Positions 7,533 through 58,739 of a DNA stretch of 64,000 nt are shown here, piece by piece (position 1 is the first letter of the stretch; every line of letters starts with the position of its first letter). The stretch is taken from positions 3,534,001 to 3,598,000 of the forward strand of contig NZ_CP009747.1 of NCBI RefSeq assembly GCF_000800255.1, read 5' to 3'. A program made the translations under genes and the position numbers. The notes beneath the pieces were generated by a model. That model had not been told where the DNA came from. It ran no database searches and saw only the letters and a list, made by a program, of their open reading frames with translations. Source of the DNA: Pseudomonas parafulva. Lineage in GTDB: Bacteria; Pseudomonadota; Gammaproteobacteria; Pseudomonadales; Pseudomonadaceae.

Positions 7533-7561
7533 GGAACCGTTTGTAGCTGAACGGCCACCCA
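7533..7561 (+). promoter_or_regulatory. hrp box (HrpL-dependent promoter) of the hrpA operon
   Basis: GGAACC at 7533-7538, 16-nt spacer, CCACCCA at 7555-7561: a full match to GGAACC-N15/16-CCACNNA. The next start codon, hrpA, is 54 bp downstream. Confidence 0.93.
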
Positions 7562-10109: not shown

Positions 10110-10699
10110 GCGCGGCCCTGACCTGGATTCACTGGTGGCACCACGCCTGGCAACTGGCCGCCATCGACTGGCAGCCACCCGGCCTCGACCAACTGAGCAC
10201 CTCGCAGTTGCACGCCCTCGCCCGTGGGCACCACGCCGCGTTGGCGAAGGGCTTGGGCATCACGCCGTGCATGCCGCCCGAACCGAACCCGGCGATGCAG
10301 GCCCTGCTGTGTACGCCCGCCACCTTGACGCTGGCCTGCGAACTGGTGGCCGCCACCTGTTCACCGCGCTCGGCAGCCCCGATGTTGTCGACGCAGGACC
10401 GCGCCTGGTGCGAGCGCACGGCCAAGGCGCTGCGCCCCGGACACTGGCTCGAACCGGACCAGGATCCTCTGGCGCTGCTGCGGGCCTGGCTGGGTGAGCC
10501 GACCTGGCAACGCGCGCGCCTGGCCTTCCCCCGCGCCAGGGTCGAGGCCCTCGAGCGCTGGGCGACGCCGCAGCCGCCAGCCGCCAGGCTCGACACGCTG
10601 TGGCAGTCGGTCTGCTGGAGGACCGGGCAACGCCCAGCGCCCATCACCCCGCCCGCTCACGACACGGAGACACCCGATGCTCGCCCGTCGCTCGCTTGA
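10106..10699 (+). CDS. hrpD: T3SS accessory protein HrpD (SctK-like)
   Basis: A 197-aa cytoplasmic protein rich in Trp, His, Leu and Ala, starting in the ATGA that ends hrcJ. Sequence conservation in this family is low. The position between hrcJ and hrpE, the length and the Trp-rich N-terminus (ALTWIHWWHHAW) fit HrpD, the SctK counterpart that helps dock the sorting platform. Its last eight codons overlap the hrpE start. Confidence 0.75.
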   Translation: MSAALTWIHWWHHAWQLAAIDWQPPGLDQLSTSQLHALARGHHAALAKGLGITPCMPPEPNPAMQALLCTPATLTLACELVAATCSPRSAAPMLSTQDRAWCERTAKALRPGHWLEPDQDPLALLRAWLGEPTWQRARLAFPRARVEALERWATPQPPAARLDTLWQSVCWRTGQRPAPITPPAHDTETPDARPSLA

Positions 10700-11273
10700 A
10701 CTACGCCCCAACGCTCAAGGCCTGCTGCAACCCTGCATCGCCCGCGAAACCCTGGTCGATTGCGGTCGGGCGCAACGGGTCATCGAACAGGCCCAGGAGC
10801 AAGCCGCGCAAGTGCTCGAGCAGGCCCGTGACTTGGCCGAGGCCGAGCGGCTCGACGCCCAGGCGCGGTTCTGGGAAAACGCCGAGGCCGCGCTCGCCGC
10901 CTGGGAAGCACAGCGCCAGGCCATGTGGGAGCAGATCGAAGCCAGCGCAGCACGGCTGGTCAACGAGGCGCTGCGCACGCTGCTGGACGAGGTGCCGGAA
11001 CCGGCGCGCATCGACGCCCTGGTGCGCCAGTTGGCCAGCGGGCAGCGCGAGTCGGGCAGTGCCACCCTGCACTGTCATCCTGACGACCTGACGAACCTGA
11101 CCCGGAGCCTCGGCAACACGGCCGCGCAGCCCTGGACGCTGGTGGCCGATGCCGACATGGACCGTCACCAACTGAGGCTGCAGACCCCCGCCGGCACCTT
11201 CCTGCTCGACTGGCCGAGCACCGTGCAAGCGCTGCGCGTGCCGGTGCCGTCATCCAACACCGTTCCTCTGTAG
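10677..11273 (+). CDS. hrpE: T3SS stator protein HrpE (SctL/FliH-like)
   Basis: A 198-aa protein. The start at 10677 has a GGAGA site and overlaps hrpD by 23 bp. Residues ~30-100 form a long helix rich in Glu, Ala and Gln (RVIEQAQEQAAQVLEQ), followed by a compact C-terminal domain, as in SctL/FliH and the stalk of ATP synthase. It should link the ATPase HrcN to the sorting platform and restrain its activity. It is the last gene of the hrpA operon before the repeat array. Confidence 0.88.
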   Translation: MLARRSLELRPNAQGLLQPCIARETLVDCGRAQRVIEQAQEQAAQVLEQARDLAEAERLDAQARFWENAEAALAAWEAQRQAMWEQIEASAARLVNEALRTLLDEVPEPARIDALVRQLASGQRESGSATLHCHPDDLTNLTRSLGNTAAQPWTLVADADMDRHQLRLQTPAGTFLLDWPSTVQALRVPVPSSNTVPL

Positions 11274-11297
11274 GAACCGCCTTGCCTCGCGATCATC

Positions 11298-12740
11298 CTG
11301 AACGCCCGCGATGACTGACTTTACGGCCGCTTCGCGCCCGATCGCGGCGCAAGGCCGCTCCCACAAAAGCCACGCTGGACTCTGGAAATCATGCGCTGCA
11401 GATGAACAACCAATGCACGATCACCCGGTGTCGCATGCCGTGCCCAAGAAGTGAAGCGAGCGCAATCTGGTGGGAGCGGCCTTGTGTCGCGATCGGGCGC
11501 GCAGCGGCCGTAAACCAGGCGACCGATATCGTTCTGAACGCCCGCGATGACTGACTTTACGGCCGCTTCGCGCCCGATCGCGGCGCAAGGCCGCTCCCAC
11601 AAAAGCCACGCTGGACTCTGGAAATCATGCGCTGCAGATGGAGAGCAAATGCACGATCACCCGGTGTCGCATGCCGTGCCCAAAAAGTGAAGCGAGCCCA
11701 ATACTGGTGGGAGCGGCCTTGTGTCGCGATCGGGCGCGCAGCGGCCGTAAACCAGGCGACCGATATCGTTCTGAACGCCCGCGATGACTGACTTTACGGC
11801 CGCTTCGCGCCCGATCGCGGCGCAAGGCCGCTTCCACAAAAGCCACGCTGGATTCTGAAAATCATGCGCTGCAGATGGAGAGCAAATGCACGATCACCCG
11901 GTGTCGCATGCCGTGCCCAAGAAGTGAAGCGAGCGCAATCTTGGTGGGAGCGGCCTTGTGTCGCGATCGGGCGCGCAGCGGCCGTAAACCAGGCGACCGA
12001 TATCGTTCTGAACGCCCGCGATGACTGACTTTACGGCCGCTTCGCGCCCGATCGCGGCGCAAGGCCGCTTCCACAAAAGCCACGCTGGATTCTGAAAATC
12101 ATGCGCTGCAGATGGAGAGCAAATGCACGATCACCCGGTGTCGCATGCCGTGCCCAAAAAGTGAAGCGAGCCCAATACTGGTGGGAGCGGCCTTGTGTCG
12201 CGATCGGGCGCGCAGCGGCCGTAAACCAGACGACCGATATCGTTCTGAACGCCCGCGATGACTGACTTTACGGCCGCTTCGCGCCCGATCGCGGCGCAAG
12301 GCCGCTCCCACAAAAGCCACGCTGGATTCTGGAAATCGTGCGCTGCAGATGAACAGCAAATGCACGATCACCCGGTGTCGCATGCCGTGCCCAAGAAGTG
12401 AAGCGAGCGCAATCTTGGTGGGAGCGGCCTTGTGTCGCGATCGGGCGCGCAGCGGCCGTAAACCAGGCGACCGATATCGTTCTGAACGCCCGCGATGACT
12501 GACTTTACGGCCGCTTCGCGCCCGATCGCGGCGCAAGGCCGCTCCCACAAAAGCCACGCTGGACTCTGGAAATCATGCGCTGCAGATGAACAGCCAATGC
12601 ACGATCACCCGGTGTCGCATGCCGTGCCCAAGAAGTGAAGCGAGCGCAATCTTGGTGGGAGCGGCCTTGTGTCGCGATCGGGCGCGCAGCGGCCGTAAAC
12701 CAGGCGACCGATATCGTTCTGAACGCCCGCGATGACTGAC
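11298..12740. repeat. Array of six tandem 236/237-bp repeats containing REP-like inverted arms
   Basis: The marker ATGACTGAC recurs at 11311, 11547, 11784, 12021, 12258, 12495 and 12732, giving periods of 236, then 237 five times. Each unit holds a 45-bp arm (first copy 11320-11364) and its near-perfect reverse complement (11470-11514, three mismatches). The arms are separated by about 105 bp inside the unit and 41-42 bp between units. The arms contain GTGGGAGCGGCCTTG, a REP core also present at 29404, 29618 and 58706. Units are about 97% alike, with shared variants in units 2 and 4 and in units 3 and 4. It separates the hrpA and hrpF operons, with decayed edges on both sides. Minus-strand open frames through it are periodic artefacts. 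Confidence 0.95.
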
Positions 12741-12825
12741 CTCACGGTGCAAGGCCGCGCCTGCAACGGCCCAGATCACGACACACGATCACCGGAAAAC
12801 CGTCGATGGTTTTCCGCCCCCAAGT

Positions 12826-12854
12826 GGAACCACCTTGGGCTTGACCGCCACTCA
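12826..12854 (+). promoter_or_regulatory. hrp box of the hrpF-hrpG-hrcC-hrpT-hrpV operon
   Basis: GGAACC at 12826-12831, 16-nt spacer, CCACTCA at 12848-12854. It lies 35 bp before hrpF and about 85 bp after the repeat array, so this operon has its own HrpL promoter. Confidence 0.93.
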
Positions 12855-12889
12855 CCCGGTGAACACGCCCAAGCCCGGAGAATCCGTCC

Positions 12890-13114
12890 ATGTCCTCGAT
12901 CGATGCCCTGCAGCGCCGCCTCGACAGCTACTTCCAGCGCGCCACCGACAACGTCAACAACGCCGCAATGAACGCCGCGCAGTCCCAGTCGCTGGACGAT
13001 ATGCACACCTTTCTCACCAGCATGAACGGCATGTCGGTCGCGGTGACGGCAGCCACCCAACAGACCACCGCGCACCACAACCTCGCCAAGGCGATCATCG
13101 ATGCAATGCCATGA
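12890..13114 (+). CDS. hrpF: T3SS protein HrpF (small needle-like component)
   Basis: A 74-aa helical protein, MSSIDALQRRLDSYF at the start, rich in Ala, Asn and Gln, with no Cys. Length, composition and first place in the hrcC operon match HrpF of Hrp1 systems, a small protein of the SctF/needle-like group needed for secretion. GGAG precedes the ATG by nine bases. The stop overlaps the start of hrpG by 14 bp. Confidence 0.85.
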   Translation: MSSIDALQRRLDSYFQRATDNVNNAAMNAAQSQSLDDMHTFLTSMNGMSVAVTAATQQTTAHHNLAKAIIDAMP

Positions 13115-13538
13115 GCTGCGCACGCAGCTCATCCGCTGGAGCGCCGACGCCGAACAGCCCGAGCGCCTGAAGCTGCTCATCGACGACGGCGAAGTCACCT
13201 TCGCCCACCTCGACGACGCGCTGCTGGTGTCGGTCGAGCTGCCCACCGAGGTGTCCCAAGGAGCATCCCTGGAGCAGGTACTGCGCCTGGCCCATCCAAG
13301 CCTGTCGCGCTTTCCCGGCGCCCTGGCGCGCGGCCCCGACGATGCCCGGTTATGGCTGATGGCGCAGGTGGCCCGTGACGCCCACATCGACGACTTGGTC
13401 GAGCTGCTCGAAACCTTGCTCAACCAGCGCGATACCTGGCAATCGATGCTGCACAAGGCGCCACGCGGTGCAGCGGCCCCGGTGGCGCGACGGCCCTCGC
13501 ACGCCCATTTTCTCGGAACAGGACTTCGACATGCCTAA
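13101..13538 (+). CDS. hrpG: T3SS protein HrpG (chaperone-like)
   Basis: A 145-aa acidic cytoplasmic protein beginning MQCHELRTQLIRWS. The length and the place between hrpF and hrcC are those of HrpG. In P. syringae HrpG binds the negative regulator HrpV and thereby frees HrpS; the same role is inferred here because hrpV is also present. It overlaps both neighbours (hrpF by 14 bp, hrcC by 8 bp), so translation is probably coupled. Confidence 0.82.
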   Translation: MQCHELRTQLIRWSADAEQPERLKLLIDDGEVTFAHLDDALLVSVELPTEVSQGASLEQVLRLAHPSLSRFPGALARGPDDARLWLMAQVARDAHIDDLVELLETLLNQRDTWQSMLHKAPRGAAAPVARRPSHAHFLGTGLRHA

Positions 13539-15660
13539 CCCGTGGCTCAGACCGTACCGCTGGATTACCGCGAACAGCACGCGCCTTCGCCAGGCACCGT
13601 CCGCGTTGCTGGCGTTGCTGCTAGCCGGCTCGCTTGGCCTGGCCACGCCGAGCCAGGCGGCAGCCCCCACCGACTGGAAGAACACCCCCTACGCCTACGA
13701 CGCCCAGGACACACCGCTGACCAAGGTCCTCGACGACTTCGCCAACACCTTCGGCGTGCAGTTGGTGATCGACGGCACCCTTGCCGGCACAGTACAGGGC
13801 CGGATGCGCGCGGAAAGTCCCCAGGCGTTCCTCGACCGACTGGGCCTGGAGAATCGCTTCCAGTGGTTCGTGTATGGCAGCAGCCTGTACGTCAGCCCGC
13901 TGAAGAATCAGCGCTCCAGGCGCCTGGAGGTGTCCGCCGATGCCGGGCCGGACATGAAACAGGCGCTGACCGATATCGGCCTGCTGGACCCGCGTTTCGG
14001 CTGGGGTGAATTGCCCGATGAAGGCGTGGTGCTGATCACCGGCCCCGAACGCTACGTGCGCCTGGTGACGCAGTTCGCCAAGGCGCGCAAGACGCCCGAG
14101 GAGAAGCAGGAAGTCATCAGTTTCCCGCTGCGCTACGCCAGCGCCGCCGACCGCAACATCAAGTACCGCGGCGAGACGCTGGTCATCCCCGGGGTCGCCA
14201 GCATTCTCCGGGGGCTGCTGGAAAACCGCGGTTCGGCCACCGGCGCGGCGCCGACCGCCCTGCCCCAGGCGTCCATGCAGGGCCTGCAAGGCAATCAATC
14301 GATGGCCATGGGCAGTCTCGAACAGTTGGCCTTCAGTGGCATGGGCCAGCCTAACACCCGCCGCGTGCAGCCTGGCCAGAGCAGTGGCGGCAGCCGTGGC
14401 AAGATCCGCGTCGAAGCCGACGTGCGCAATAACGCCGTGCTCATCTACGACGCGCCCAAGCGCCGGGAAATCTACACCCCGCTGATCCGCGACGTGGACG
14501 TGCCGCGCAAGCTGGTGGAAATCGACGCGATCATCCTCGACATCGACCGCACCCAACTGGCCGAGCTGGCCGCCAACTGGAACGTCGAAAGCGGTGACCT
14601 GATCGGCGGCGCCTCGATGCTGCGCCCCGGCGCCAGCTCGACGGTGTTCATCCAGGACTACGGCGACTTCGCCGCGCAACTGCGCGCGCTGGAAGGCCGC
14701 GGCCTGGCCTCGGTGGTGGCCAACCCCTCGGTGCTGACCTTGGAGAACCAGCCGGCAGTCATCGACTTCAGCCGCACCGAATACCTCTCGGCCGTTGGCG
14801 AGCGAGTGGCCAACATTGAGCCAATAACCGCCGGCACCAGCCTGCAGGTGGTGCCGCACGCCATCGAGACCGGCGGGCACAAGCAGATCCAGATGGCCCT
14901 GGACATCGAGGACGGCCGTATCGAGCCGTCCGCCGTCGGCCAGCGCACGCCCAGTGTGCGCCGTGGCGTGGTCAGCACCCAGGCGGTGATGGGCGAAAGC
15001 CGCTCGCTGGTGGTCGGCGGCTTCCACACCGAGGAAACCGGCGACAACCTGGAACGGGTGCCGTGGCTGGGGCGCATCCCACTGGTAGGGCCGCTGCTGT
15101 TTTCCTCGACCACCCGCCAGACCAGCCGCCGCGAGCGGGTGTTCATCCTCACGCCACGCCTGATCGGCGACCAGGTCGATCCGGCCCGCTACATCTCCAG
15201 CCTCGACCGCCAACAGGTGGACAACGCCATGGCCCGCGTGCAAGAGCGGCGCAACGGCAAGCGTCCGGTCGGGCGCCTGGAGGTCAGCGACGTCCTGGCG
15301 CACCTGGCCGACGGCAATATCCCGGCCTCGTTCAAACAAGCCGAGTCGATTCCCTACGCGCCCGAGACGCTGTGCGCCCTGCAGCCCGGATTGACGCTGG
15401 ATGCCGCGCGCGCGCAATGGTTCGCCGGGCCCGACTACGGCATCGCCGTGGGCGTGGTGCGCAACGAGGGCCAGCGCCGCGTGCGTTTCGATGAAGCGAG
15501 TTGCGGCAGCCGCTGGACCCTTGCCGCCTCCGCCTGGCCGAAGGTCTGGCTGGAGCCGGGCGAGGAAACCGAAGTGTTCGTGGTCATGAACCCGCCGGCT
15601 CGCCTGCCGGGCAACGAACGCCCCTCCCTGCTGCACACCACTGCGAGGCTGAACCCATGA
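13531..15660 (+). CDS. hrcC: T3SS outer-membrane secretin HrcC (SctC)
   Basis: A 709-aa secretin. The start at 13531 gives a signal peptide (hydrophobic ALLALLLAGSLGLA, cleavage near SQA). The periplasmic N-domains follow (about 50-310), with a low-complexity Ser/Gly linker. The conserved secretin core follows (about 350-560), including VVANPSVLTLENQPAV and the late block VGGFHTEETGDNLERVPWLG. The C-terminal ~130 residues after ILTPRLIGDQ are an extension that should contain the pilotin-binding site; HrpT lies next door. It forms the gated outer-membrane channel. Its stop and the hrpT start overlap as ATGA. Confidence 0.96.
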   Translation: MPNPWLRPYRWITANSTRLRQAPSALLALLLAGSLGLATPSQAAAPTDWKNTPYAYDAQDTPLTKVLDDFANTFGVQLVIDGTLAGTVQGRMRAESPQAFLDRLGLENRFQWFVYGSSLYVSPLKNQRSRRLEVSADAGPDMKQALTDIGLLDPRFGWGELPDEGVVLITGPERYVRLVTQFAKARKTPEEKQEVISFPLRYASAADRNIKYRGETLVIPGVASILRGLLENRGSATGAAPTALPQASMQGLQGNQSMAMGSLEQLAFSGMGQPNTRRVQPGQSSGGSRGKIRVEADVRNNAVLIYDAPKRREIYTPLIRDVDVPRKLVEIDAIILDIDRTQLAELAANWNVESGDLIGGASMLRPGASSTVFIQDYGDFAAQLRALEGRGLASVVANPSVLTLENQPAVIDFSRTEYLSAVGERVANIEPITAGTSLQVVPHAIETGGHKQIQMALDIEDGRIEPSAVGQRTPSVRRGVVSTQAVMGESRSLVVGGFHTEETGDNLERVPWLGRIPLVGPLLFSSTTRQTSRRERVFILTPRLIGDQVDPARYISSLDRQQVDNAMARVQERRNGKRPVGRLEVSDVLAHLADGNIPASFKQAESIPYAPETLCALQPGLTLDAARAQWFAGPDYGIAVGVVRNEGQRRVRFDEASCGSRWTLAASAWPKVWLEPGEETEVFVVMNPPARLPGNERPSLLHTTARLNP

Positions 15661-29403: not shown

Positions 29404-29518
29404 GTGGGAGCGGCCTTGTGCCGCGATTGGAGCGCGCAGCGGTCCCAGGTTTTCTGCTTCGCCGCTGCCATCCTCGGGACCGCTTCGCGGTCCAATCGCG
29501 ACACAAGGCCGCTCCCAC
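29404..29518. repeat. REP-like inverted repeat pair downstream of hrpL-GNAT
   Basis: GTGGGAGCGGCCTTGTG at 29404-29420 pairs with its reverse complement ending at 29518, with extended imperfect complementarity between. Same REP core as the 11.3-12.7 kb array. The region 29352-29689 contains no supported gene. Confidence 0.85.
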
Positions 29519-29617
29519 ACGCAGCCGGCGCGGTGTCAGACAGATTGGGAGATCATCGAGCGCTAGAGGATGAGGGCGCAACTGTCTTGCTCAACTTCTG
29601 GCAGCTCACCGGCCCTT

Positions 29618-29684
29618 GTAGGAGCGGCCTTGAGTCGCGATGGAGCGCGCAGCGGTCCCAGGTTTTCTGCTTCGCCGCTGACAA
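29618..29684. repeat. Second REP-like element, partly duplicated from the first
   Basis: GTAGGAGCGGCCTTGAG core followed by a ~36-bp segment (29648-29683) nearly identical to 29431-29467. Unlike the first pair it lacks the opposite arm. It abuts the P450 stop codon. Confidence 0.75.
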
Positions 29685-52046: not shown

Positions 52047-55204
<3,158 letters not shown>

Positions 55205-58619: not shown

Positions 58620-58739
58620 AAAACCCAGGACTGCTGCGCAGTCCAATCGCGACACGAGGCCGCTCCCACGAGAGCGTGCGAGCTGTCTGAGCCTACACCG
58701 GCCAACTTGTGGGAGCGGCCTTGTGCCGCTCCCACAAGG
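58620..58739. repeat. REP-like elements between the transglycosylase and ldcA
   Basis: A reversed REP core ends near 58671 (CGAGGCCGCTCCCACGAG). A compact perfect hairpin, CTTGTGGGAGCGGC/GCCGCTCCCACAAG with 5-nt loop, spans 58706-58738. The second hairpin abuts the ldcA stop and separates convergent genes, so it may serve as a terminator. Same family as the 11.3-12.7 kb array arms. Confidence 0.8.

Follow-up and report, generated by a model that had tools for sequence, protein, structure and literature searches.

A long-period tandem array of inverted REP pairs between hrpE and hrpF of Pseudomonas parafulva

Genes and promoter elements around the array

The window analysed here is the whole stretch of 64,000 nucleotides from Pseudomonas parafulva (contig NZ_CP009747.1, positions 3,534,001 to 3,598,000), in which hrpE (sctL) and hrpF lie on the plus strand (Table 1) and nearby genes give profile matches to SctJ, a sigma-54 activator, a CesT-type chaperone and a secretin. 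Between the hrpE stop and the hrpF start there are 1,616 bp, which hold a tandem repeat array with hrpE on one side and hrpF on the other. The pattern of the hrp box is matched five times in the window where 0.15 matches would be expected by chance, and the two plus-strand boxes among them that start at 7533 and 12826 support the presence of two HrpL-type operons. The preliminary description of this DNA had placed the array between two HrpL-type transcription units, and that placement is upheld both by the boxes and by the assignment of the flanking genes to HrpE (PF06188) and HrpF (PF06266). An inverted repeat without a T run behind it, CGGAAAACC-6-GGTTTTCCG, is also present at 12793-12816, just 5' of the hrpF hrp box.

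Table 1. Repeat units, border elements and neighbouring features of the hrpE-hrpF gap, in window positions.
Feature	Position	Strand	Evidence or composition
hrp box, upstream operon	7533..7561	+	Pattern match
hrpE (sctL), upstream gene	10677..11273	+	PF06188, E 5.6e-35; TIGR02499 above cut-off; ATG start
Probable decayed R-type REP	11270..11294	+	20/25 matches to R arm
Last 28 nt of 41-nt linker	11292..11319	+	93% match to linker positions 14-41
Unit 1 (236 bp)	11320..11555	+	L arm 11320-11364, 105-nt linker, R arm 11470-11514, 41-nt linker
Unit 2 (237 bp)	11556..11792	+	L arm 11556-11600, 106-nt linker, R arm 11707-11751, 41-nt linker
Unit 3 (237 bp)	11793..12029	+	L arm 11793-11837, 106-nt linker, R arm 11944-11988, 41-nt linker
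Unit 4 (237 bp)	12030..12266	+	L arm 12030-12074, 106-nt linker, R arm 12181-12225, 41-nt linker
Unit 5 (237 bp)	12267..12503	+	L arm 12267-12311, 106-nt linker, R arm 12418-12462, 41-nt linker
Unit 6 (237 bp)	12504..12740	+	L arm 12504-12548, 106-nt linker, R arm 12655-12699, 41-nt linker
Shortened, decayed L arm ending array	12741..12771	+	77% match over 30 nt in register
hrp box upstream of hrpF, intact	12826..12854	+	Pattern match; 54 nt past array
hrpF, downstream gene	12890..13114	+	PF06266, E 3.3e-19

Architecture of the repeat units

TRF delimits the array at 11298-12747 with a period of 237, 6.1 copies, 97% matches and a score of 2690, and a 35-nt marker is seen seven times with start spacings of 236, 237, 237, 237, 237 and 237, in full agreement with the six tandem units, the REP arms and the marker positions first reported for this locus. 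Within each unit, an L arm and an R arm of 45 nt each are separated by a linker of 105 nt (in unit 1) or 106 nt (in the others), and a second linker of 41 nt follows the R arm. The arms had been described as 45-bp reverse complements with three mismatches, which is correct for the R arm against L arms 1, 2, 5 and 6 (93% complementarity) but not against L arms 3 and 4, where the mismatches number four (91%). Likewise, the loops given earlier hold for unit 1 (105 nt) and for pairing across units (41 nt), whereas the loop within the other units is one of 106 nt.

Both arm types carry a GTGG tag together with a 5-bp stem and a 5-nt loop, which is the combination of GTRG tag and GC-rich hairpin by which a REP is recognised. 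An R arm and the L arm that follows it across the 41-nt linker form a pair of inverted REPs, their GTGG tags at the outer ends, and fold as one long hairpin, as a REPIN does, and the array as a whole consists of head-to-tail modules of alternating REPs, the arrangement of a modular BIME or tandem REP array. REPINs, which comprise two inverted GTGG-tagged REPs, are regarded as non-autonomous DNA elements for which a RAYT acts as the transposase. Judged by its sequence, R-41-L is a REPIN or HH dimer and L-105-R is a TT dimer with its tags inside, the HH and TT terms being those of the part of PMC3733652 at hand. A generic scan for a tag plus hairpin gave 76 matches in the window and proved too unspecific, and class-specific patterns were used instead.

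The array could in principle be a repetitive coding region, 237 being a multiple of 3, and mechanically called minus-strand ORFs of 73-152 aa do occur within it. However, these ORFs do not span the array, unit 1 has 236 bp and the arms are dispersed REPs, and we give a coding origin practically no credence.

The array also has borders that were absent from the preliminary description, namely the decayed R arm and the shortened L arm of Table 1. On the upstream side, the TAG stop codon of hrpE (11271-11273) sits inside the GTAG tag of what is probably a decayed R arm; the best R-arm match on the plus strand of the rest of the window that is not already called a REP reaches 19/25, and it is therefore the position of this arm at the junction that makes it convincing. 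On the downstream side, the closing L arm is about 21 nt short and the spacing is 21 nt below the period, with a complete 41-nt linker before it. The whole cluster reads as seven REPINs in series, the outer arms of which would have decayed, with six copies of the longer linker between them.

Variation among the units

The units differ at 13 columns, nine of which are informative, two-state and gap-free, and 14 pairs of these nine show all four gametes, as results from sequence exchange among units or from repeated mutation. At an offset of 237 the sequence is identical over tracts as long as 216 nt, which bears out the potential for recombination raised at the outset and leads us to expect changes in unit number.

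Tandem units that are long and nearly identical are known to mislead assembly, and one might ask whether the real locus has fewer units than the assembly gives it. We regard such an artefact as highly improbable. The genome is a single contig, and this together with the 13 variable columns makes a plain assembly duplication unlikely; moreover, similar arrays built from other units are found at other loci.

Copies of the same REP class elsewhere in the genome

The genome (one contig of 5,087,619 bases) contains the REP core at 92 sites with at most 2 mismatches, limits that leave out two of the twelve arms of the array (L3 and L4), and the reversed control gave 0 sites. Four arrays account for 36 of the 92 sites: the one between hrpE and hrpF has 10 of them, and those at 3.986, 4.982 and 4.959 Mb have 16, 6 and 4, respectively. 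TRF gives the other three arrays periods of 226 bp (7.5 copies), 295 bp (3.1 copies) and 227 bp (2.9 copies). The hrpE-hrpF array is thus neither the sole nor the largest one in the genome, since it has three or more further REP arrays of long period and one of them is larger, and in view of these arrays and of the 92 core sites it is not unusual. The earlier expectation of much shorter units in REP arrays is not supported by this comparison, given periods of 226, 227 and 295 bp in the same genome and, in the portion of PMC3116915 available to us, spacings of 112 + 72 bp in SBW25.

Smaller relatives of the array are present as well. Specifically, a two-unit REP cluster lies at 3.502 Mb, and a single-copy REPIN of the same R-41-L plan lies at 3.405 Mb, its 41-nt linker matching that of the array at 78% over 37 nt; such a lone element would fit movement of the doublet as a unit. 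Whole or partial copies of the 105-nt linker, at 80-88%, were found at five further loci in this genome. Spread of this linker to other species was considered and dropped, since full scoring of 18 other genomes gave no copy; none was seen among 397 other genomes either, a weak result in that two candidates were scored per genome and most of the copies in the array's own genome were missed by the same procedure. Plasmid records gave no match to the array region.

The 92 core sites are unevenly placed: beyond 3.3 Mb there are 81, whereas the first 1.0 Mb has 6 and the stretch of 1.0-3.3 Mb has 5. Within the window, a REP cluster of the same class with the order R-37-L-about 100-R occupies 29404-29656, its linker being similar to the linkers at two other loci (L015 and L025), and more REPs of the class occur at 58633-58735, one of which forms a GTGGGAGCGGC...GCCGCTCCCAC-type palindrome.

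A RAYT gene and the origin of linkers

The one PF01797 match of the genome is a REP-associated tyrosine transposase, or RAYT (NF047646.1, E 2.3e-43). The 5' flank of its gene (positions 1261-1326 of the RAYT region, L029) has copies of 62-67 nt with 81-100% identity beside REPs at four loci (L009, L010, L016 and L028), and in the arrays at L009 and L010 the flank lies inside the repeated unit. The nearest REP array to the RAYT gene is that at L010, about 9 kb away. No REP of the hrpE-hrpF class was detected in the 14.9 kb around the RAYT gene, and this RAYT can be named only as a putative enzyme for the class of the array. A RAYT origin was also considered for the 105-nt linker and was rejected, as the linker has no match in the RAYT region.

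Folding and termination signals

The R-41-L hairpin has a predicted energy of -103 kcal/mol (z = -14; none of 200 shuffles reached so low a value) and the L-105-R pairing one of -121.5 kcal/mol, so that the two alternative pairings noticed at the start are both very stable. The lone arms fold too, at -22.7 and -18.5 kcal/mol (z only -1.7 and -1.0), and the longer linker of 105/106 nt folds no better than its shuffles (z +1.3). The idea of a structural switch therefore stands only in so far as both pairings are possible, for the arms fold alone and nothing indicates regulation. A regulatory RNA whose transcript alternates between pairing within a unit and pairing across units would indeed make use of two very stable hairpins. 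It would, however, have to contend with single arms that fold alone and with a linker that folds worse than shuffles; a comparison of the region 10500-13700 with Rfam gave no family with an E value of 1 or lower, and the same alternation with different linkers recurs in other REP arrays of the genome. We consider such an RNA extremely doubtful.

Signals of other kinds were likewise sought. An intrinsic terminator, meaning a GC stem followed by a T run, was found 0 times in 11200-12900 against 1.7 times in shuffles, and the array contains no sigma-70 promoter. The BIME-2 elements of E. coli, the unit of which is much shorter than the 237-bp unit found here, bind IHF or gyrase, whereas no IHF consensus was found in the hrpE-hrpF array; since just 0.43 sites would be expected across all 64 kb, their absence from the array says little. 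A long untranslated stretch such as that between hrpE and hrpF would favour Rho-dependent termination, which REPs are stated to facilitate in the part of PMC2817692 seen.

The hrpE-hrpF gap in relatives

The same gap was read in 12 relatives with HrpE 66-74% identical, which come from a sample of 398 genomes of the genus, the present one among them; the loci read are the best 30 of 102 genomes with an hrpE match (own included), plus named loci. Three loci (L031, L032 and L033) share their gap sequence with three others (L063, L064 and L071) and are counted once, and a second search centred on another genome gave 3 hrpE matches, none of them new. The gap is free of REPs and 99-128 bp long in four of the 12 relatives (G319, G335, G278 and G035), and it measures 99 bp and is likewise without a REP in strain K18 (L030). 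The other eight have gaps of 248-802 bp that hold REPs of classes other than that of the window. Some of these REPs are in tandem, with TRF finding 4.2 copies of 133 bp in the gap of G146 and 2.5 copies of 136 bp in that of G311, while at a further locus (L096) the sequence and the pattern matches reveal repeated B-class REPs and TRF calls no array. The hrp box downstream of the gap is kept in every relative read. The class of the window, those of A/D type and those of B/C type together suggest at least three separate gains, and the REPs of A type in these gaps are probably of one origin, because their flanks look alike.

In more distant hrp loci the gap is 14-106 bp in 13 of 23, the remaining 10, which have no detectable hrpF, lying outside the 13. 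It should be noted that the REP word list does not cover every class (at L073 it counts 0, where class patterns find REPs), hence the reading of the distant loci as having no REP rests mainly on gaps of 14-106 bp.

The occupation of eight of the 12 gaps made an hrpE-hrpF hotspot convincing at first, yet this idea was abandoned when another gap of the same regions turned out to be occupied in 10 of 11. That control gap lies 6.7-6.8 kb upstream, and the 11 are the genomes whose region extends there; further controls about 9 kb upstream and 3.7-4.8 kb downstream each hold REPs in 5 of 11 genomes. The REPs are also abundant, for exact copies of the class-A core number 257 to 1,400 in the genomes of 11 of the 12 relatives, with none in one. 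Hence, hardly more than the settling of REPs wherever a gap is permissive is needed to account for the recurrent use of this one. In the window itself, matches to seven REP patterns, under mismatch limits that again omit arms L3 and L4, are confined to the hrpE-hrpF gap and to two sites farther downstream, at distances of 18 and 47 kb, and so the other gaps of the window's hrp cluster are empty with respect to these seven patterns.

One explanation of these data would be that the array is selected as an insulator of the hrp operons or as a stabiliser of their 3' ends, and that REPINs have been gained there repeatedly for this reason. REPs of other classes in the same gap of eight of the 12 relatives, in tandem in at least two, would fit such selection, as would the constant presence of the downstream hrp box in these relatives and the fact that, for the seven patterns, the hrpE-hrpF gap alone is occupied in the window's hrp cluster. 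Against it, other gaps of the relatives' regions also hold REPs at the control frequencies given above, four of the 12 relatives and strain K18 do without a REP, and the distant hrp loci have their short gaps of 14-106 bp. On balance we hold selection of this kind to be unlikely. A more elaborate form, in which the gap is selected to gain REPIN arrays of whatever class the host has and the unit number serves as a tunable insulator that balances the two halves of the secretion apparatus, we hold to be very unlikely. The comparison across species, with several REP classes and more than one tandem gain in a single gap, provides a baseline for claims of a regulatory role.

Two further observations were made in these genomes. 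By eye, the gaps of G060, G302 and G311 (L065, L069 and L072) have in common a stretch of about 300 bp that resembles another dispersed element. In the first 380 kb of G410, class-A REPs run in steps of 132-136 bp, with seven in 54169-54985, for example, among the matches listed.

Proposed origin of the array and comparison with known systems

Based on the anatomy of the units, the copies elsewhere in the genome and the comparison of gaps, we propose that the hrpE-hrpF array is a modular BIME of REPINs that was amplified in place, is tolerated as a selfish repeat at an operon boundary and possibly acts as a Rho-dependent insulator, a reading to which we assign a probability of roughly 0.85. 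In the proposed sequence of events, a REPIN would have entered the DNA where hrpE ends, ahead of the hrp box of hrpF, and a module consisting of the REPIN and the 105-nt linker would then have been amplified head to tail to give the six units. Amplification may have proceeded by rolling-circle copying linked to a RAYT or by unequal recombination, and sequence exchange between units would have come later. The array would most likely persist as a tolerated selfish repeat. As a side effect, the 1,616 untranslated and strongly folded nucleotides would be likely to bring about a Rho-dependent stop and to shield the 3' end of the upstream transcript; that the transcripts of hrpE and hrpF would be kept separate in this way is something for which we see about even odds. 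A striking and regular repeat in a secretion-system locus would thus be explained by ordinary REPIN biology.

The plan of the array is already in print for SBW25, for Stenotrophomonas and for others, and its position between hrpE and hrpF is not claimed to be unreported, although, among the open-licence papers listed for REPs in hrp clusters, no title or abstract opening concerned REPs between these two genes. One close likeness is to the GI-GIII arrays of P. fluorescens SBW25, for which the excerpt of PMC3116915 consulted describes alternating REPs with two alternating spacings and near-identical units, the largest arrays having 12 REPs, as well as REPIN clusters in which flanking sequence is repeated. 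The hrpE-hrpF array differs from those arrays in its unit of 237 bp, in its REP class and in having both arms from one class. It also resembles the GTAG-1 dimers of PMC3733652, so far as the pages seen describe them, in that HH dimers (tags outside, here with a 41-nt spacer) alternate with TT dimers (tags inside, here with a 105-nt spacer); dimer clusters are there tandemly repeated with flanking DNA, and the TT spacer found here is slightly above the 20-100 bp given for most dimers.

Tandem alternating REPs are shared with BIME-2 of E. coli (PMC2817692). In the available part of PMC2817692, the modular BIMEs of Stenotrophomonas and of other RAYT hosts consist of inverted-REP modules set head to tail, with inter-REP segments that differ among arrays, as they do here. 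Sequence of a rayt has been captured between REPs both in those hosts and in the present genome. The captured part is not the same, however, since here the 5' flank of the gene has been taken up, in arrays at least 9 kb from the RAYT itself, whereas 3' ends in adjacent BIMEs are described in the portion of PMC2817692 seen. The tie between inter-REP linkers and the flank of the sole RAYT detected in the genome is a small addition to what can be said of how such arrays may arise.
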